A DNA stretch of 37,572 bases, taken from positions 1 to 37,572 of the forward strand of contig JANXVW010000117.1 in the NCBI GenBank assembly GCA_025351455.1, read 5' to 3'. Positions 2,657 through 36,511 of the stretch are shown one piece after another. The position numbers were made by a program, and so were the translations under genes. Position 1 is the first letter of the stretch. Every line of letters starts with the position of its first letter. The notes below the pieces were generated by a model that ran no database searches, was not told the origin of the DNA, and saw only the letters and a list, made by a program, of their open reading frames with translations. The stretch is from Betaproteobacteria bacterium. GTDB taxonomy: Bacteria > Pseudomonadota > Gammaproteobacteria > Burkholderiales > JACQAP01.

Positions 2657-3016
2657 CTACTCGCGAATCCGAACTTGATCGGGTTCAACAATCCATAGCC
2701 TTGCTTGCACCAGCTCGCCGGGCATTGGCGCAAGGGCGCCGCGCAACAGTGCGAGCGTGTTCTCGACGCTTTGCGTGTGCGGGCGGAGAATCCAGATTCC
2801 GTTATGGCTGGATGGCCGGTAGAGGCGAATATCGGAGAAATCGAGGTCGAGCGCAATCAGCACTCGATTTTCGGTCTGACACGCATCAAGGACCCTGGCA
2901 TCAGGATTCCCTCCGAGCCGTTCGTCAAGAACCGTTTCTACGTCATGACCGGCGTCGCGAAGCAATGCTCCGGCATCCTTCGGAAGATTTTCGTCCAGCT
3001 TGAACCGGACAGCCAT
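2657..3016 (-). CDS. DUF5615-family PIN-like toxin candidate
   Basis: The 119-residue product has the layout of DUF5615 (PIN-like, Mut7-C-related) proteins. It opens with FKLDENLPKDAGALLRDAGHDV, and has the acidic DLDFSDI block and RLYRPSSHNGIWILR in the middle. The acidic residues (D of LDEN, D of DLDFSD) match the predicted metal-binding positions of PIN-like nucleases. The start at 3016 (MAVRFKLDEN) matches the family N-terminus better than the upstream ATG at 3097. It overlaps the preceding DUF433 gene by 74 bp, the usual toxin-after-antitoxin order for this pair. It sits inside an integron-type cassette. Toxicity is inferred from the pairing, not shown. Confidence 0.82.
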   Translation of the reverse strand: MAVRFKLDENLPKDAGALLRDAGHDVETVLDERLGGNPDARVLDACQTENRVLIALDLDFSDIRLYRPSSHNGIWILRPHTQSVENTLALLRGALAPMPGELVQARLWIVEPDQVRIRE

Positions 3017-3251
3017 CCGTACAGTAAGCAGGGATTGGAACGATGCGTTCCCGAGCCAGATCGGCAGCGTAGCCGAGTGCGGCTGGAATGTGCTCAAGTT
3101 TCAACGACGGGTACTGGTCAAGGATACCTTCAGGCGTCTCACCGGCCGCCAGATTGTCGCGAACTACAGACCCGGGAATTCTCGTGCCTCGGAAGCACAC
3201 AGTTCCGTGCATTATCTCGGGATCGGTAGTGAGGTAGGGTTTCCAGTCCAT
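2943..3251 (-). CDS. DUF433 antitoxin candidate
   Basis: The product has the DUF433 core: DPEIMHGTVCFRGTRIPGSVV, then LAAGETPEGILDQYPSL, then IPAALGYAADLA. This is a small winged-helix-like fold commonly encoded next to DUF5615 or PIN-like partners and presumed to be the antitoxin and DNA-binding autoregulator. The start at 3251 (MDWKPYL) fits the family; an in-frame ATG at 3335 would add a non-conserved extension. The frame runs about 25 residues past the usual domain end (VPIPAYCTDGC onward) and overlaps the toxin gene by 74 bp. Its start lies about 50 bp inside the cassette after the attC at 3302-3391. Confidence 0.82.
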   Translation of the reverse strand: MDWKPYLTTDPEIMHGTVCFRGTRIPGSVVRDNLAAGETPEGILDQYPSLKLEHIPAALGYAADLARERIVPIPAYCTDGCPVQAGRKSSEGCRSIASRRRS

Positions 3252-3301: not shown

Positions 3302-3391
3302 GCCCAACGTCTGGGTGAATGGCGGACCAACCCACACGACGACTGATATGGCGCGGCGCCAGCGGCCCGTCCGTTCGACCTCGAGTTAGAT
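3302..3391 (-). other. attC recombination site (cassette 3 end, 90 bp)
   Basis: On the minus strand R'' is ATCTAAC (3391-3385) and R' is GTTGGGC (3308-3302), both matching RYYYAAC and GTTRRRY. The stop codon TAA of BrnA is contained in R'', typical of gene cassettes. The arms between the boxes are partly complementary (GGTGAATGGCGGACC against GGTCGAACGGACGGGCC) around a longer variable loop. The length is within the range known for attC sites. Confidence 0.75.
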
Positions 3392-3664
3392 GGAAGCATC
3401 CTTAAACGCCTTGAGTACCGCGTTTATGCGTGTCTGGTAACCAGGCCCCTGTGCCTTAAACCATTCGAGTACTGCGGCGTCCACGCGAAGCGATATCGAG
3501 GTCTTGCCGGATGCGGGCTTCAAGCCTTGGCGCGCGATGCCGCGGACAATGTGCTTCACATCCGCCTCGGGGTGCTCGGTTGACCGCTTGATGTCCTTGT
3601 CCTTCATACTTCGGACTCGCGCCCAATCGGTTTTAGAGGCTTTGGAAGAGGATGGTCGTTTCAC
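3386..3664 (-). CDS. brnA: BrnA-family antitoxin
   Basis: The 92-residue product ends in a BrnA domain: KTSISLRVDAAVLEWFKAQGPGYQTRINAVLKAF, the ribbon-helix-helix dimerisation and DNA-binding part that represses its own promoter. The basic N-terminal half (KRPSSSKASKTDWARVRSMKDKDI) is the part that contacts BrnT in the characterised system. It overlaps the 3' end of brnT by 32 bp, in the normal toxin-first order. The stop codon lies inside the attC R'' box. A direct repeat at the brnT promoter is its likely operator. Confidence 0.9.
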   Translation of the reverse strand: MKRPSSSKASKTDWARVRSMKDKDIKRSTEHPEADVKHIVRGIARQGLKPASGKTSISLRVDAAVLEWFKAQGPGYQTRINAVLKAFKDASI

Positions 3665-3902
3665 GCTTTGTTGCCTTTCGAAAAGAGATAATGTGGATGC
3701 GGTCTTTCGTTTCGGTATGGACTATTGACACCGGAAGACCCTCCAGCAGCCCCAAGGTTACGAATCGTTTCTCCTCGTACCGGAAGCGGTCATCTTCAAA
3801 GGTAAACGTGGCGTCTTCGAATACCCGCTGCGCATCCACAAAATCCAGCCCGTGGTCCTTCAGGTTTCGCCTGCGCTTAACCTCATCCCAAGTGAACCGC
3901 AT
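3633..3902 (-). CDS. brnT: BrnT-family ribonuclease toxin
   Basis: The 89-residue product is a full-length BrnT. It has MRFTWDEVKRRRNLKDHGLDF at the N-terminus, the AQRVFEDA segment, the strand RFVTLGLLEGLPVSIVHTE and the C-terminal IISFRKATKRE. BrnT is a RelE-like endoribonuclease that arrests translation until bound by BrnA. The ATG at 3902 is fixed by the family start. It has no ribosome-binding site because the -10 box lies only 5 bp upstream, suggesting a leaderless transcript. The gene is the first of a two-gene module carried in an integron-type cassette with its own promoter. Confidence 0.92.
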   Translation of the reverse strand: MRFTWDEVKRRRNLKDHGLDFVDAQRVFEDATFTFEDDRFRYEEKRFVTLGLLEGLPVSIVHTETKDRIHIISFRKATKRETTILFQSL

Positions 3903-3906
3903 AAGA

Positions 3907-3936
3907 AAGTGTATATTCGAAGTGTATATACGTCAA
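3907..3936 (-). promoter_or_regulatory. brnTA promoter with direct-repeat operator
   Basis: On the minus strand TTGACG (3936-3931) is followed after 17 bp by TACACT (3913-3908), and the ATG begins at 3902. This predicts a transcript starting at or next to the start codon. TATACACTT occurs twice with a 13-bp period (3928-3920 and 3915-3907), covering the spacer and -10. That is well placed for BrnA to block RNA polymerase. The repressor assignment is inference. Confidence 0.65.
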
Positions 3937-3955
3937 GGAGCTCGAATCTGCTGCC

Positions 3956-4014
3956 GTATAACTTTTGAATTCAGCGGCCGCCGCTAGGCGGTCCGCTGCA
4001 ATTGCTTGTTGGGC
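3956..4014 (-). other. attC recombination site (cassette 2 end, 59 bp)
   Basis: On the minus strand R'' is GCCCAAC (4014-4008) and R' is GTTATAC (3962-3956). The inner arms AATTGCAGCGGACCGCC and GGCGGCCGCTGAATT are complementary except for an unpaired G and A on one arm, the extrahelical bases that give attC hairpins their strand polarity. A TAGC loop closes the stem. The length of 59 bp is the classical size. R'' is the exact complement of the GTTGGGC at the other end of the same cassette. Confidence 0.88.
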
Positions 4015-4060: not shown

Positions 4061-4998
4061 TCATTCATCGACTTGAAGCTGTACAGTTTTAATAGTCCTC
4101 ACGATCGAGACAGAATCGGACTGAATGCGTTCTGTGAGACCCTTTGGGGAACTGGCCACAACGAAGGCCCCCTGATCTTCCACTGCTTTAGCGAACTCAG
4201 GTGATTTGAGCACGGCCACAATCTCCTTATGAAGACGAGCAATAAGATCCAGCGAAGTTTTGGCTGGGACCAAGAGCGCGAACCAGAGCTGCTGCTCGAC
4301 ACCTGTTATGCCTAACTCGCCCAGTGTGGGCACATTTGGAAGGGCAGGAATGCGTTTCAATCCGGTGACGGCCATAGCGTGGAGTCTACCGGCCCGAACG
4401 TTGGGCAGCGCCGCAAGCGGGCTGATGAACATCATGGAAACCTGAACATTTCGCCGACAAGATGCAGTGTTGTACCTGGACCTGCTGACGCATAAGTTAG
4501 CTCGCCGGGCTTTCGGCGCGCAAGCGCGATGAGATCGGCTGCACTCTTTACTGCCAAGGAAGGCGAAACGACCAATACTAACGGCATGTCCGTAACGATG
4601 GTAATTGGCGCGAAGTCGCGTTGCGGATCGAAATCGATGTTGGCGTGTAAGGCCGGTTCGATAACAAGCGTAGCGGTACTTGCAAAGAACAAAGTGTGGC
4701 CGTCAGGCGCAGCGCGCGCGGCAAGACCGGCGCCAATGCGTCCACCAGCACCGGGTCGATTGTCTATCACTACAGGTTTTCCGAGTCGTTCGGCAAGGCC
4801 TTTCGCGATGAGACGCGCTTGAACATCGTTAGCACCACCCGGAGGAAACGGCACGATGATTGTAATCGGCTTGGTCGGATACTCGATCGCGAATGAATTC
4901 TCAGCTAGAGCAAATACAGCGATGCAACATATCCACGCGATAACGACTCTGGTGATGAACAAGTCGCGTACCGGATTGGTCTGGTGTGCGCTACACAT
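4061..4998 (-). pseudogene. Bug/TctC-type periplasmic solute-binding protein, frameshifted
   Basis: The N-terminal part (from ATG 4998, with GAGGAG upstream) has a signal peptide ending near FALAENSFAIE. The Bug hallmark YPTKPITIIVPFPPGG follows, then VVIDNRPGAGGRIGAGLAARAAPDGHTL, and it runs to HLVGEMFRFP, where the frame stops near 4432. The remainder continues in another frame from about 4435 (MMFISPLAALPNVRAGRLHA) to the stop at 4061. The family segment that normally bridges these points (the VPYKG...LLGG region, about 25-30 residues) is absent. A small deletion together with a frame change is the simplest reading. Intact members bind carboxylates for tripartite transporters. The gene fills an integron-type cassette; no TctA/B partner is nearby. 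Confidence 0.85.
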
Positions 4999-5014: not shown

Positions 5015-5071
5015 GCCCAACGTCCGAATTGTGTGGCGCCGACAGGCGTCCGCACCAATGAATTGTTAGAT
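5015..5071 (-). other. attC recombination site (cassette 1 end, 57 bp)
   Basis: On the minus strand R'' is ATCTAAC (5071-5065) and R' is GTTGGGC (5021-5015). The stop codon of the 5599 gene lies in R''. Between them are AATTCATTGGTGCGGACGC and GGCGCCACACAATTCGGAC, an imperfect palindrome with loop CTGTC. The opening TCTAACAATTCATT closely resembles well-known class 1 integron cassette sites. R'' is the exact complement of the GTTAGAT at the cassette's other end (5616-5610). Confidence 0.88.
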
Positions 5072-5599
5072 TTCACCGGCTTTTTCCTGAAGCAATTGGA
5101 ACAGCTTCTCAATTCCGCTAGTGAATTCCTTAATTTCAGCCACTAGCAGATCATTTCGAATCTTAATTGTTTGGCGAAAATTACTCATGGCGCCTGACGT
5201 ATCTTTGTATGCTTGGCGGCTATTAGTGCCAGCATTCAAATGCAATGCTCCAATCGAAGCATCTCGAAGGCCAGTAAGAAGCTCGGTCTGTATTAGCAGC
5301 TTGTCCGGGAGGTTTGCTTTTAAGAGATCCCAAATTCCATCTTTGAACGGCAGCATCGGCACAAGTAGGTAGCCCTCCGAGAGCATCTTTGATTCCTCAT
5401 CGAGCAGCTTTAGGTTGGCTTTTCCGATCTCCACGTTCTCATCGAGTTCGTGCTTAACGGCGCGAACAATCGCTTGATTGCGACATTTTTCTTCGCGTCG
5501 GATTTTCCAGAGATCCCATGCCATCGTAAATCCGAAGCCGGCAAGGGTGGCCGCGGATCCACTAATTACACCTAGGACAAAGTCGCTCAGCTCCGGCAT
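5066..5599 (-). CDS. Cassette-borne membrane-anchored protein, unknown family
   Basis: The 177-residue product begins with one hydrophobic segment (DFVLGVISGSAATLAGFGFTMAW). A basic stretch KIRREEKCRN follows and the rest is largely helical and charged (KHELDENVEIGKANLKLLDEES; AEIKEFTSGIEKLFQLLQEK), suggesting a membrane anchor with a cytoplasmic helical domain. I do not recognise a family with certainty. The start at 5599 is only about 10 bp after an R' box and the stop lies in the next attC, so this is a tightly packed cassette gene. Base composition is visibly more AT-rich than flanking genes, consistent with acquisition. Confidence 0.75.
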   Translation of the reverse strand: MPELSDFVLGVISGSAATLAGFGFTMAWDLWKIRREEKCRNQAIVRAVKHELDENVEIGKANLKLLDEESKMLSEGYLLVPMLPFKDGIWDLLKANLPDKLLIQTELLTGLRDASIGALHLNAGTNSRQAYKDTSGAMSNFRQTIKIRNDLLVAEIKEFTSGIEKLFQLLQEKAGEI

Positions 5600-5609
5600 G
5601 TTTGGTGAA

Positions 5610-5616
5610 ATCTAAC
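5610..5616 (-). other. R' half-site at the 5' edge of the cassette array
   Basis: GTTAGAT on the minus strand (5616-5610) has the GTTRRRY form and lies directly before the first cassette gene. It is the exact complement of that cassette's own R'' box. Upstream is a perfect 12-bp palindrome GAAGTCGACTTC (5619-5630) but no attC stem and no integrase gene, so this could be a remnant of attI or of a deleted attC. Confidence 0.6.
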
Positions 5617-5724
5617 GTGAAGTCGACTTCCTAAATGCAGCTTATCTGGTAAGCGATGACATTGCGCCGCATGCAGTGAATTGATTCTCCGGAAAGATAC
5701 AGAAAATGCAAGTCGGCCAAAATA

Positions 5725-5850
5725 CCGTGACTACGTGACTATCGTGACTGCGTGACTGTCGTATAAAGGCGCTCCGTATCTCGTTTCCTTAAGCGTTCTT
5801 GTTTTACCTCCACAGCAGTCACGATAGTCACGTAGTCACGATAGTCACGG
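5725..5850. repeat. Inverted-arm repeat element J (GTGACTATC words)
   Basis: The left arm (5725-5763) consists of four 8-9 bp words of the form CGTGACTA(T) or CGTGACTG(T). The right arm (5816-5850) is four units of the reverse complement. A 25-nt stretch is identical between the left arm and the complement of the right arm, but offset by one word: each arm has one extra unit at a different end, as replication slippage would give. The right arm ends 2 bp from the stop codon of the hydratase gene. Confidence 0.87.
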
Positions 5851-5852
5851 CT

Positions 5853-6635
5853 TCACCCGACAATACTGATCTCCACCGACCCCACACCCTCGATCGTGTA
5901 CTTGTAGTGCTCGCCGGCTTTGGGAAAGCGGGTGGTGACCCAGCTTCCGGTCAGCACGATCGCGCCCTTGTTCAGCGTTTGCCCGAGTTCGTTAAGGTTG
6001 TTCGCCAGCCAGCGCAACGGTTCGAACGGATGGCCCAGCACGTCGGCGCCCTTGCCTTCATCGATGACCTTGCCGTTGCATTCCAGCACGCTCGTCGCCG
6101 TACCGAGATTCGGCCAGGTGTTCCTGAACTCGCCGAGCACGTTGCCTTCATTCCACGAGTTGTCCGCGACCAGGGAAAGCAGGTCTAGCGGGTAGTCGGA
6201 ATTGCGGTCGTCGATGACTTCGAAAGCGGGGCACACGGCATCCACCGCGGCGGCGACTTCATCGAGTGTGTAGGGCTTGCCGCGCGGGGTCAGCGAAGTG
6301 CCGAGGCGGGCGCAGCATTCGAACTCTATGCCGAGCCGGCCGAGTTTGGAAAGGGAAAGCGATACGCCGCTCTGGTGCACCCGCTTCTCGAAAATCACGC
6401 CAGAATTCGGATGATTGACGCCGCACATTTCCTGCATGCGCTTCGAAGTCAGACCGATCTTGTAGCCGACACGCCGGCCGAGGACTGCTTCCAGCCTTTT
6501 CACGTAGGCCGCCTGGATCGCATACGCGCCCGCCAGGTCGGTGGCGCCGTAGTCCCGCGCAAACGGCACGATCTTGCTTCTTGCGGCGTGATCGCGCATC
6601 AACGCAGCCGCCGCTTCTTCTGTTCTCACATTCAT
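5853..6635 (-). CDS. 2-keto-4-pentenoate hydratase / fumarylacetoacetase-family hydratase
   Basis: The 260-residue product matches the MhpD/HpaH type of the FAH superfamily, usual length about 260. Visible segments are AYAIQAAYVKRLEAVLGRRVGYKIGLTSKRMQEMCGVNHPNSGVIFE, then LGIEFECCARLG with the metal-binding glutamates, then CPAFEVIDDR and NKGAIVLTGSWV near the end. These enzymes hydrate 2-hydroxyalka-2,4-dienoates in meta-cleavage pathways; related members are decarboxylases. The ATG at 6635 is preceded by GAGGAG. It is divergent from the CoA-transferase operon across an 85-96 bp spacer holding a solo repeat arm. The exact substrate is undetermined. Confidence 0.88.
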   Translation of the reverse strand: MNVRTEEAAAALMRDHAARSKIVPFARDYGATDLAGAYAIQAAYVKRLEAVLGRRVGYKIGLTSKRMQEMCGVNHPNSGVIFEKRVHQSGVSLSLSKLGRLGIEFECCARLGTSLTPRGKPYTLDEVAAAVDAVCPAFEVIDDRNSDYPLDLLSLVADNSWNEGNVLGEFRNTWPNLGTATSVLECNGKVIDEGKGADVLGHPFEPLRWLANNLNELGQTLNKGAIVLTGSWVTTRFPKAGEHYKYTIEGVGSVEISIVG

Positions 6636-10395: not shown

Positions 10396-10422
10396 CCCGC
10401 TTGCACACCGCATCAGACCTTA

Positions 10423-10602
10423 ACGCAAAGACGCAAAGGCGCAAAGGGAACGCAAAGAAAAACAAAGAAATGTGGGGAGTAATACAAACAAGCGGCGTGC
10501 TTACGCGCCTTGTAACCAGGACCACCGAAGGTCCTATTCACTCTCGATAAGTTATCTCGAATTGCCTTCCTTCGCGTTCCCTTTTCGCCTTTGCGTCTTT
10601 GG
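10423..10602. repeat. Inverted-arm repeat element E (GCAAAG words)
   Basis: The left arm 10423-10460 reads ACGCAAAGACGCAAAGGCG then CAAAGGGAACGCAAAGAA. The right arm 10565-10602 is its reverse complement with few changes, ending GCCTTTGCGTCTTTGG. The roughly 100-nt spacer separates them. It lacks the outer CACC/GGTG word found in other copies. It fills most of the 300-bp gap between corA and the alcohol dehydrogenase, where I see no gene. Confidence 0.85.
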
Positions 10603-10695
10603 GGGTGGGCCGTAGGTGCCGCGCGAAGCGTGCAAGGCGGTGTTAGGATTCGGGCGCGAGGCGAAAGCCAATAAAAACATGACGGGGAGAAAGCA

Positions 10696-13784: not shown

Positions 13785-14010
13785 GTTCACCGCAAAGACG
13801 CAAAGGACGCGAAGGAAAGGGAACAACGAGGGATAGAAAACAGGATTGGGATACAACGCAATTGTTCACGAATCTGTGCCTTAAATATTTGCTGCGATGG
13901 CCCATCAGTCACTGAAGGCTCTCAACATCACAATTTTTCTCGTTTCAGTTTTCCTTCGCGTCCTTTGCGCACCCCTCCAGGGGGTACTGAAAAGAGTCTT
14001 TGCGGTGAAC
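13785..14010. repeat. Inverted-arm repeat element F, right arm split by a 27-bp insert
   Basis: The left arm 13785-13821 begins GTTCACCGCAAAGACGCAAA. The right arm occurs as two parts: 13949-13969 (TTTTCCTTCGCGTCCTTTGCG) and 13997-14010 (TCTTTGCGGTGAAC). Joined, they complement the left arm exactly over about 33 bp. The intervening 27 bp (13970-13996) contain ACCCC/GGGGT around TCCA. It ends 17 bp before the GNAT-like gene. Confidence 0.87.
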
Positions 14011-14959: not shown

Positions 14960-15045
14960 GTCAGCTAAGAGCAAAGGCCAGGAAGTTTGGTGCCGCATGC
15001 GGCGTGAGTCAATGCTATTCCAGCTACACACACCCCTAAATAGAT

Positions 15046-15238
15046 GCGCACCACGAAGGCACGAAGGACACGAAGTGGCACGAAGAAAGGCAAGTACAAA
15101 AAGGCTAATATTTTTCGACGGTGGCATCGCTGATATGTGCCCGTAAATCTAGGCGATCTGCGTACATATCCATTAGTCCAATATACATTTTCGTTCTTCT
15201 TCGTGTTCCTTCGTGACCTTCGTGCCTTCGTGGTGCGC
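15046..15238. repeat. Inverted-arm repeat element G (CACGAAGG words)
   Basis: The left arm 15046-15090 begins GCGCACCACGAAGGCACGAA and continues with two more CACGAAG words. The right arm 15196-15238 is its reverse complement, ending CCTTCGTGGTGCGC. The outer 22 bp match perfectly. The roughly 105-nt spacer is AT-richer than its surroundings. It occupies the middle of the 420-bp gap between the divergent acpH and zwf genes; I see no other gene there. Confidence 0.88.
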
Positions 15239-15347
15239 AGTTGGTCGAGGGCAGTTGACCGAGAGAAGGGGTAATTTCGTGTCCGGCGGCTGAACGTGTA
15301 TAAATGACGGCAGCCGAACAAACCTCCATTCCCCAAGCAGGCAATCC

Positions 15348-31407: not shown

Positions 31408-31425
31408 CAAATAGATCCCGGACGT

Positions 31426-31582
31426 TCTCACCGCAAAGACGCAAAGGAACGCAAAGAAGAACAGGAATGTAAACGGGCGAGATATTGGCGTGCGCGGTCA
31501 ATGTAGCAACCGGCGCCGCTGCTTACTTTCGAATCATTGCTCCGCGATGCTTTCCTTTGCGTCCTTTGCGTCTTTGCGGTGA
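31426..31582. repeat. Inverted-arm repeat element H (GCAAAG words)
   Basis: The left arm 31426-31459 begins TCTCACCGCAAAGACGCAAA. The right arm 31550-31582 is its complement ending GTCTTTGCGGTGA, and the outer 20 bp pair perfectly. The spacer is about 90 nt. The right arm stops 3 bp from the stop codon of the convergent hydrolase gene and the left arm starts 18 bp after the upstream stop, so it fills the whole gap between two convergent genes, where a terminator is expected. Confidence 0.88.
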
Positions 31583-31585
31583 CAT

Positions 31586-32653
31586 CTATTTGGGTTCGTC
31601 GAGGAAGAGCTGCACTTCGTGGAAAAGCTGCCTGCGGTTCTTTTCCATGATGACAGTGTGCGTGCCTTCGCCGATTTCAACGTAACGCTTCGACGGCGCG
31701 TTCTTCAGTAGCGGGAACAGCGCCTGGGCCATATAGGCCGGTGTGTCCTGGTCCCATTCTGCTTTTATCAACAAGGTCGGCACGCGGATGTTCGCCGCAT
31801 CGTAGTAGGTCTTGCCGGAGGCCCAGTAATCGCGCACATCCTGGATGACGCCATTGGGGGCGCGCAGGAGGCCGGCTTCTTTTGAATTGGGATCGGTGGC
31901 CCAGGTCGCGTCGGTCCAGGCTTCGAACCAGCCGGAAGGAATCAGATCCGCCTGCTTGTCTTCCGGGACGCCGGTCAGCCAGCGCTTTTTTGCGCCGTCG
32001 CGGTTGACTGTGCGATAGGCGCCCAGCGGGCCGTCACCGCCGATCAGCAGTGGCGTATTGCGCAACCAGAGCGGGGCGTAGAGCACCAGCTTGTCGACCT
32101 TGTCATTGTTCGCCGCGGCATACGTACCCATGATCGACGTGCCCCATGACCAGCCGAGCAGGCTCAGTTTCGATATTCCGCGCCGCTTCATGATGTAGTC
32201 GACCGCGGCGCCGACATCGCGGACGGCGATATCGGTCGTCACGAGCGGCGCATTGTCCTTCGCCGCTTTGTCCATTTCCGGGGGTCGGGTCGAGCGCCCG
32301 TAGCCGCGCAAGTCCACCAGCCACACATCCCAGCCATGGGCGGCGATATAGTCCATCCAGGACAGGCCGTCGAGCTGAAGATCGAATGCGGTTTCCGACG
32401 GATACGTTGCGCCATGCACGTAGAGCAGCACGCGGCCGGTCGACGCGCCCTGGTTCTTCGCATGCTTGTTGCGCAGGAAGAGTTCGATGCCCGATGTGTC
32501 GGAGGGAATTCGCAGGTCTTCGGACACGAGGTCGGAAATCGCGCCCTTCAGTGTGTCATCGTGGGCCGACGCGCCGGGGGTGCAGAATGCAAGCAGCACG
32601 AAGACTGCTGCAGGCAAATAACCATGAATGCCGGTTTTCACTCGATCCTCCAT
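31586..32653 (-). CDS. Exported alpha/beta-fold hydrolase
   Basis: The 355-residue product has a signal peptide (LPAAVFVLLAFCTPGASA, about residues 13-30) and an alpha/beta-hydrolase domain. The oxyanion strand is VLLYVHGATYPSE, the nucleophile elbow is SLLGWSWGTSIMG (GxSxG), the acid lies near LLIKAEWDQDTPA and the His is in IGEGTHTVIME. The segment WDVWLVDLRGYGRSTRP is classical. Likely a periplasmic esterase or lipase-like enzyme. The start at 32653 (MEDRVKTG) is preceded by GGAG-like sequence. Divergent from srkA. Confidence 0.9.
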   Translation of the reverse strand: MEDRVKTGIHGYLPAAVFVLLAFCTPGASAHDDTLKGAISDLVSEDLRIPSDTSGIELFLRNKHAKNQGASTGRVLLYVHGATYPSETAFDLQLDGLSWMDYIAAHGWDVWLVDLRGYGRSTRPPEMDKAAKDNAPLVTTDIAVRDVGAAVDYIMKRRGISKLSLLGWSWGTSIMGTYAAANNDKVDKLVLYAPLWLRNTPLLIGGDGPLGAYRTVNRDGAKKRWLTGVPEDKQADLIPSGWFEAWTDATWATDPNSKEAGLLRAPNGVIQDVRDYWASGKTYYDAANIRVPTLLIKAEWDQDTPAYMAQALFPLLKNAPSKRYVEIGEGTHTVIMEKNRRQLFHEVQLFLDEPK

Positions 32654-36319: not shown

Positions 36320-36325
36320 TTCCAT

Positions 36326-36490
36326 TCTCACCGCAAAGACGCAAAGGTCGCGAAGAAGGGTGCAATAATTTGATAAGGAAATGAACACATGCGCGATTGG
36401 CGCGAGGCAAAGAGCTGCCCTGGCCAAGGGCTAGGCCTGGTGTCCCGTTCATTTCCGATTCCTTTGCGCCCTTTGCGACTTTGCGGTGAA
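36326..36490. repeat. Inverted-arm repeat element I (GCAAAG words)
   Basis: The left arm 36326-36360 begins TCTCACCGCAAAGACGCAAA. The right arm 36459-36490 ends GACTTTGCGGTGAA and is complementary with a few changes. The spacer is about 98 nt. It begins 7 bp after the qorA stop and its right arm lies about 20 bp before the SDR start, overlapping the place where that gene's promoter or leader would be. Confidence 0.87.
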
Positions 36491-36511
36491 AAATAGCGGG
36501 GGAGAAAAGAA

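Follow-up and report, generated by a model that had tools for sequence, protein, structure and literature searches.

A BrnT-BrnA toxin-antitoxin operon in an integron cassette, with a conserved promoter-operator block and a predicted leaderless toxin mRNA

The DNA analysed here, referred to as the window, is the whole of contig C238 (37,572 bases) from a draft genome (3.94 Mb, 353 contigs). Our main reading, to which we give a probability of roughly 0.78, is that it carries an intact type II BrnT-BrnA operon as an integron cassette, transcribed from its own sigma-70-type promoter, with a leaderless brnT and with repression through an operator. The whole control unit lies within about 60 bp between the recombination box and the ATG, so that the operon would work wherever the cassette inserts.

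The toxin gene, brnT (3633-3902, minus strand), encodes a predicted ribonuclease toxin of 89 amino acids (PF04365 BrnT_toxin, 87.1 bits against a cut-off of 34.5), and brnA (3386-3664, minus strand) an antitoxin of 92 amino acids (PF14384 BrnA_antitoxin, 62.4 bits, cut-off 26.1), read from an assumed GTG start inside brnT. Both proteins thus exceed the curated Pfam cut-offs of their families, both frames are intact, and the genes stand in the order toxin then antitoxin with an overlap of 32 nt (brnT 3902-3633, brnA 3664-3386). With attC sites on either side, this bears out the BrnTA cassette of the original prediction, whose coordinates were right to within a base. In the BrnT-BrnA system, the ribonuclease toxicity is neutralised by BrnA in a 2:2 complex. 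PDB entry 3u97 was matched as a BrnT-BrnA structure, and no relative of BrnA was found by sequence among solved structures at E values up to 0.1. The AlphaFold model of BrnA alone is poor (mean pLDDT 67.5) and contains no beta strand, so that the strand of the ribbon-helix-helix (RHH) fold is not seen in it.

The operon is the third of four cassettes that run along the minus strand from a GTTAGAT box at 5616 down to about 2650, separated by three attC sites in one orientation (5071-5015, 4014-3956 and 3391-3302). The opening R' box GTTAGAT (5610-5616) is the exact complement of the ATCTAAC at 5071, and the attC covariance model, R1, lists no attC upstream of it. Cassette 1 (5066-5599) encodes a 177-aa protein without a Pfam or NCBIfam match, whose ATG lies 10 nt past the box, leaving no room for a promoter of its own; it is closed by the attC at 5015-5071 (ATCTAAC ... 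GTTGGGC, 62.2 bits, a site included in the covariance model). Cassette 2 (4061-4998) holds a broken TctC-type receptor gene, seen as two open reading frames in different frames that cover profile positions 2-126 and 156-272, with about 127-155 absent. The brnTA cassette itself (3308-3961, minus strand) has its recombination points, G^TT, at 3962/3961 and 3308/3307. Cassette 4 (2657-3251), which follows it, matches the DUF433 (3251-2943) and DUF5615 (3016-2657) profiles and is probably a second toxin-antitoxin cassette; the attC searches of the window found no site closing it.

A search of the genome's contigs for integrases gave matches on C137, C4 and C213 only, and none on the 37.6-kb contig of the window. 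The integron integrase gene on C137 is intact (487 bits to TIGR02249, cut-off 265) and lies beside an IS1595-type transposase fragment. Two attC sites are the threshold for a CALIN, a cluster of attC sites without an integrase, in PMC12444791; the window has three in the same orientation and no integrase match on the contig. We therefore see here a small cluster that lacks an integrase of its own, while the genome encodes an integron integrase elsewhere; the sedentary integron array originally envisaged is not supported. Among the 399 genomes of the order that were searched, the three others of the window's genus with a match had only distant ones (best E 1.7e-10, compared to 8.8e-40 in another family), which suggests that the operon came in from elsewhere.

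The brnTA cassette is bounded on both sides by attC sites with R'' and R' boxes and a folding stem. The attC of the preceding cassette (3956-4014, minus strand, GCCCAAC ... GTTATAC, 59 nt), which supplies the start box TTATAC, scored 57.3 bits on the minus strand and 18.3 bits on the plus strand; it is part of R1, and its GTTATAC box passes the relaxed box rule only. The attC of brnTA (3302-3391, minus strand, ATCTAAC ... GTTGGGC, 90 nt) stands outside R1, a model built from ten sites (two of the window's, the other eight taken at brnTA homologues elsewhere), and was still recovered by this model with a score of 25 bits and an E value of 0.0008 in 46 kb. A strict attC-like search of the window gave three hits (two sites, one on both strands) compared to 0.45 +/- 0.80 in 40 dinucleotide shuffles, which reached a maximum of 3, a modest result taken alone. 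Over the whole genome at E <= 1, the covariance model made 19 matches: C238 had three, C90 seven, and C46 and C93 two apiece, with single ones on C60, C27, C240, C51 and C183. Matches whose E value approaches or exceeds 0.1 may have arisen by chance. A copy of the downstream attC, 85% identical over 104 nt, stands on C240. In that region (L009:391-871) the copy adjoins a possible decayed BrnA-like remnant, a weak match of 45% over 20 residues (E 0.017), which also lies beside a HicB-like antitoxin gene and another attC.

Relatives of the operon were sought in 399 genomes of the order, in species-representative genomes (201 relatives, best 80 kept), in viral contigs and in plasmids. Viral contigs yielded only four distant BrnT relatives (34-40% identity), and plasmids none at 60% identity or above. 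The best 80 of the 201 relatives, the window, L011, L012, L015 and L016 make up the 85 loci used below; seven were removed for an identity of 92% or more across the first 240 nt of brnT, which left 78 non-redundant loci. Those set aside were L010 (the window itself), L013 and L014 (upstream sequences the same as those of L054 and L095) and L017 and L032 (without a brnT start).

Upstream of brnT, a local scan located a -35 element, TTGACG (3931-3936, minus strand), and, after a 17-bp spacer, a -10 element, TACACT (3908-3913, minus strand), together matching 9 of 12 consensus bases; TTCTT follows, and then the ATG at 3902. A promoter with this spacing, its -10 box ending 5 nt before the toxin start, had been predicted and is present. 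Between 2600 and 5700, 2 promoter-like sites were observed compared to 1.8 +/- 1.4 in shuffles, and the window's promoter alone is therefore no better than chance. It is the family comparison that makes it convincing. Across the 78 non-redundant loci, positions -35 to -6 before brnT (counting the A of the ATG as position 0) are conserved, at up to 1.3 bits, while -75 to -37 are near zero; both the -35 element and the position of the -10 element are kept in the family, and the spacer is 17 bp in 61 of the 75 loci counted when TACA[AC]T is taken as the -10 box. The block averages 0.69 bits in the 29 loci with both cassette boxes and 0.63 bits in the 49 without detected boxes, a partial test of cassette ends in that some of the 49 are cassettes too (e.g. 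L053 and L054, with a downstream attC-like site). The flanks of these two groups average 0.08 and 0.03 bits, respectively, and the 22 fourfold-degenerate sites of brnT reach 0.23 bits, below the promoter block. Since the block also precedes brnTA operons without detected cassette ends, the promoter belongs to BrnTA and not to the cassette. The notion of a promoter special to this cassette did not survive the comparison, and we reject a cassette-only adaptation for the same reason.

In the usual sigma-70 geometry, a -10 hexamer at -12 to -7 or -11 to -6 implies transcription from the start codon or from a base beside it. The operator palindrome described below begins at -18 in 70 of the 85 loci (best 80 of 201 relatives plus five) and at -17 in 11, which places the hexamer at one or other of these positions; the -10 box is thus placed for transcription from the start codon in 81 of the 85. 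None of these 85 loci has a Shine-Dalgarno tetramer (GGAG, AGGA, GAGG or AAGG) at -18 to -4. Both results support the leaderless geometry of the original prediction, and a transcript start at 3902-3900, as predicted from sequence, agrees with the family pattern. Among 58 loci of the wider BrnT family, 34 have a -10-like hexamer whose end lies 4-8 nt upstream of the start, compared to 10 of 178 other frames, a rough control made of unchecked open frames of the same 58 loci with the first ATG taken. The leaderless-position hexamer is lacking in 24 of the 58, and in 7 of the 58 there is a Shine-Dalgarno-like tetramer. It should be noted that five of the best 80 of 201 relatives (L044, L096, L112, L113 and L119) show neither ATG nor GTG where the alignment places the start codon of the window, and that L095 has a stop codon directly after its ATG.

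A real promoter could also give a message with a short leader, or one read from another start codon, and we consider this unlikely. A transcript beginning a few bases before the ATG would be compatible with the sequence, and the window's -10 box is one base nearer the ATG than that of most relatives. However, the 0 of 85 count of Shine-Dalgarno tetramers argues against a leader, and the brnT start appears fixed by D6, E7 and K9, positions important for ribonuclease activity in Brucella BrnT according to PMC5086665 and matched here by position alone. We also entertained, and rejected, the idea that a leaderless brnT and a Shine-Dalgarno-driven brnA serve as a stoichiometry device: a Shine-Dalgarno-like tetramer precedes the assumed brnA start in only 25 of the 85 loci (best 80 of 201 relatives plus five), and that assumed start is often no start codon.

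The leaderless promoter that we favor is overlain by a repeat. The direct repeat TATACACTT, read from the sequence (3907-3928, minus strand; copies 3928-3920 and 3915-3907, 13 bp apart), lies across the promoter as had been noticed from the start. In the family, the operator over the -10 box has the consensus TGTATATACA. The window's upstream copy, CGTATATACA (3923-3932, minus strand), matches it at 9 of 10 positions and is the best upstream copy of 76 loci; the downstream copy, CGAATATACA (3910-3919, minus strand), 13 bp from the first and overlapping the -10 box, matches at 8 of 10, the lowest of the 83 loci with the motif among the 85 (best 80 of 201 relatives plus five). The window is unusual in this respect, since of its two copies the upstream one is the better match and the one over the -10 box the poorer. 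The two loci of the 85 in which the motif is absent, L098 and L116, are both cyanobacterial. An upstream copy at the 13-bp spacing averages 5.36/10 over the 76 loci, compared to at most 3.51 for other spacings from 8 to 19. The TATACACTT repeat is, by this comparison, the window's form of a predicted tandem operator of the BrnTA family, and it looks like a candidate BrnA operator, with tandem copies conserved 13 bp apart. On our reading, the family's preference for TTGACG arises because its final G doubles as base 2 of the upstream operator copy.

We propose the following mechanism. RNA polymerase would begin transcription on the first codon of brnT or no more than a base or two away; the toxin would be translated from a leaderless mRNA and brnA from the same message. 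The two palindromic operator copies, of 8-10 bp and 13 bp apart, overlap the -35 end and the -10 box, and their occupation by a BrnA RHH dimer, by itself or together with BrnT, would repress the promoter. Assuming that BrnT is toxic, cells that lost the cassette would be left with the stable toxin set free and would be selected against, by analogy with Vibrio cassettes (PMC11023631 and PMC8876359).

No more probable than a short leader is transcription of the operon by read-through from outside, from an integron Pc or from upstream genes, in which case the block before brnT would be no more than an operator or a relic. PMC11014356 describes cassettes without promoters as the usual case, and the box-to-ATG distance is 10 nt in cassette 1 and 7 nt in a BrnT-only cassette on C93. 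On the other hand, the genome's integrase matches lie on other contigs than the window's, and a -35 element, a 17-bp spacing and a -10 element have been kept at a fixed distance from the ATG, which would be needless for a mere operator.

The ends of the cassette raised a further question. Its upstream R' box, GTTATAC (3962-3956), and its downstream R'' box, ATCTAAC (3391-3385), which holds the brnA stop codon, agree as complements at 5 of 7 positions and differ at 2, confirming that they are not exact complements. An R''-like box occurs at or just after the brnA stop in 45 of the 85 homologous loci (best 80 of 201 relatives plus five). Sought 36-80 nt before brnT, its complement was present exactly at 21 of those 45 loci, at 26 when one mismatch was allowed and at 32 when two were; three control stretches farther upstream gave, per 45 loci, 0, 0 and 2 exact hits, 0, 1 and 2 with at most one mismatch and 4, 3 and 6 with at most two, so that part of the two-mismatch group, in which the window falls, is due to chance. 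Imperfect pairs make up 11 of the 32 counted cassettes, some perhaps by chance. Among the 21 exact cassettes the pair seen most often is GTTAGAC/GTCTAAC, in 8 of them, and GTTATAC boxes occur also in L067, L071 and L074.

For the mismatch, either a fusion of two cassettes or erosion had been suggested, and the second explanation suffices. Although a fusion could leave boxes that differ at 2 of 7 positions, each window box is a single base away from the commonest exact pair, and a point mutation therefore explains the mismatch with no need for fusion. Moreover, R'' takes in the brnA stop as it does in the family, the 60 nt from box to ATG are like those of 17 of the 21 exact cassettes (-56 to -62), and imperfect pairs are found in other cassettes too. 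We reject fusion as very improbable, less likely than either read-through or a short leader. Finally, the idea that promoter and repeat are chance matches in an AT-rich spacer, which the local scan by itself would allow, is almost certainly wrong given the conservation of 78 non-redundant loci with flat flanks, the 34 of 58 against 10 of 178 control frames and the 0.69 and 0.63 bits against 0.23.

The operator comes in more than one form. In a subset of 12 loci (best 80 of 201 relatives plus five), TGTAGCTACA replaces TGTATATACA, the palindrome being kept through changes on both sides of its centre. BrnA residue 56, which we take to belong to the strand through which the RHH fold contacts DNA, is Leu in all 12 TGTAGCTACA loci; in the 70 TA-centred loci it is Ser in 55, Ala in 11, Leu in 3 (L052, L061 and L063) and Gln in 1. 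The comparison covers 82 of 84 BrnA proteins (12 + 70, near-duplicates included), L098 and L116 being without a classified operator. The distant L133, whose BrnT is 51% identical to the window's, has two GTAGCTAC palindromes 13 bp apart upstream of brnT, and Leu at position 56. On the tree, operator class needs 3 changes and Leu at residue 56 needs 6; with so few changes there are few independent co-changes, and the covariation stays a lead, weakened by relatedness. The tracking of the operator centre by residue 56 is nonetheless a testable lead. We put at a little under even odds the broader view that Pseudomonadota BrnTA operons share an ancestral leaderless promoter with the operator woven into its -35 and -10 elements, that this 60-bp unit enables their travel as cassettes, and that Leu 56 (window numbering) is a code for the change from TGTATATACA to TGTAGCTACA.

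The original prediction was correct in what it observed and largely correct in how it read it; the find is ordinary in kind, and is lifted by the family-wide promoter-operator block. What was a single weak promoter guess becomes a testable family rule on leaderless toxin translation and on autoregulation by an operator within the promoter. An operator swap tied to one antitoxin residue would in turn allow the insulation of co-resident BrnTA pairs from each other to be tested directly. If true, our reading would also explain the expression of some cassettes that lie far from Pc or outside any integron.

The closest known system is BrnT-BrnA of Brucella abortus (3u97), which belongs to the same families (PF04365, PF14384) and whose antitoxin, with a C-terminal RHH domain, controls brnTA transcription (PMC10714953 and PMC11980606). 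Work of 2012, as cited in PMC10714953, found that BrnA and BrnTA of Brucella bind the brnTA promoter, and the same article describes a BrnA-like antitoxin of Acidovorax with no binding to its own promoter in a gel shift. The window's operon differs from that of Brucella in being an integron cassette, and its operator and leaderless geometry were derived here by comparison. Toxin-antitoxin cassettes of the chromosomal integrons of Vibrio cholerae and V. vulnificus likewise have their own promoters and are thought to stabilise the array (PMC11023631 and PMC8876359), whereas the window has a cluster of four cassettes with no integrase on the contig, and not a large array. For the human oral metagenome, 23 cassettes are described as active promoters in E. 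coli, and the toxin-antitoxin cassettes named in that set include BrnT-BrnA; unlike the window's, those cassettes are mostly of Treponema type, and the passages on them report no start site, operator or leaderless geometry (PMC6557892). BrnTA cassettes with their own promoters have therefore already been published (PMC8876359 and PMC6557892), and BrnT/BrnA are listed among integron toxin-antitoxin genes in PMC7370490.

As for leaderless transcripts, 32 of the 37 toxin-antitoxin pairs of Mycobacterium tuberculosis with a primary transcription start site are leaderless and start at the start codon (PMC3898074). That organism belongs to a different phylum and its start sites were mapped, whereas we infer the window's. 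A leaderless BrnTA promoter was not found in the openly licensed literature searched: in the portion of PMC5086665 at hand "leaderless" refers to MazF, and that of PMC2945992 mentions leaderless translation only in general.

Several other loci of the genome deserve mention. A BrnT-family gene on C93 (L197:1064-1483, 44 bits) sits in a cassette of its own, 7 nt past the R' box and with no brnA seen beside it; 7 nt leave no room for a promoter, a design opposite to that of the window's cassette in the same genome. A third BrnT-family locus, on C2 (L199:1061-1602), has a 68-aa frame matching 51 of 77 profile positions, followed by an RHH-antitoxin-like frame and an attC-like repeat, both recognized by eye only. 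The array on the minus strand of C90 (L196) has seven attC matches to the covariance model, and one of its cassettes (1538-995) encodes a small protein without a Pfam match and then an HTH protein. In this cassette the palindrome TACCATTAATGGTA lies beside a promoter-like TTGACA near the start codon, a proximity suggesting that it too may be leaderless.

The window also contains repeats of two other kinds. About 100 nt upstream of the array's first box, at 5723-5856, there is an inverted pair of GTGACTATC-like units of 29-36 nt. Interspersed repeats of the TCACCGCAAAGACGCAAAGG type occur at 1056-1246, 10415-10607, 13785-13823, 15045-15239, 31425-31587 and 36325-36497, and several of them form inverted pairs with 96-113 nt between the arms.
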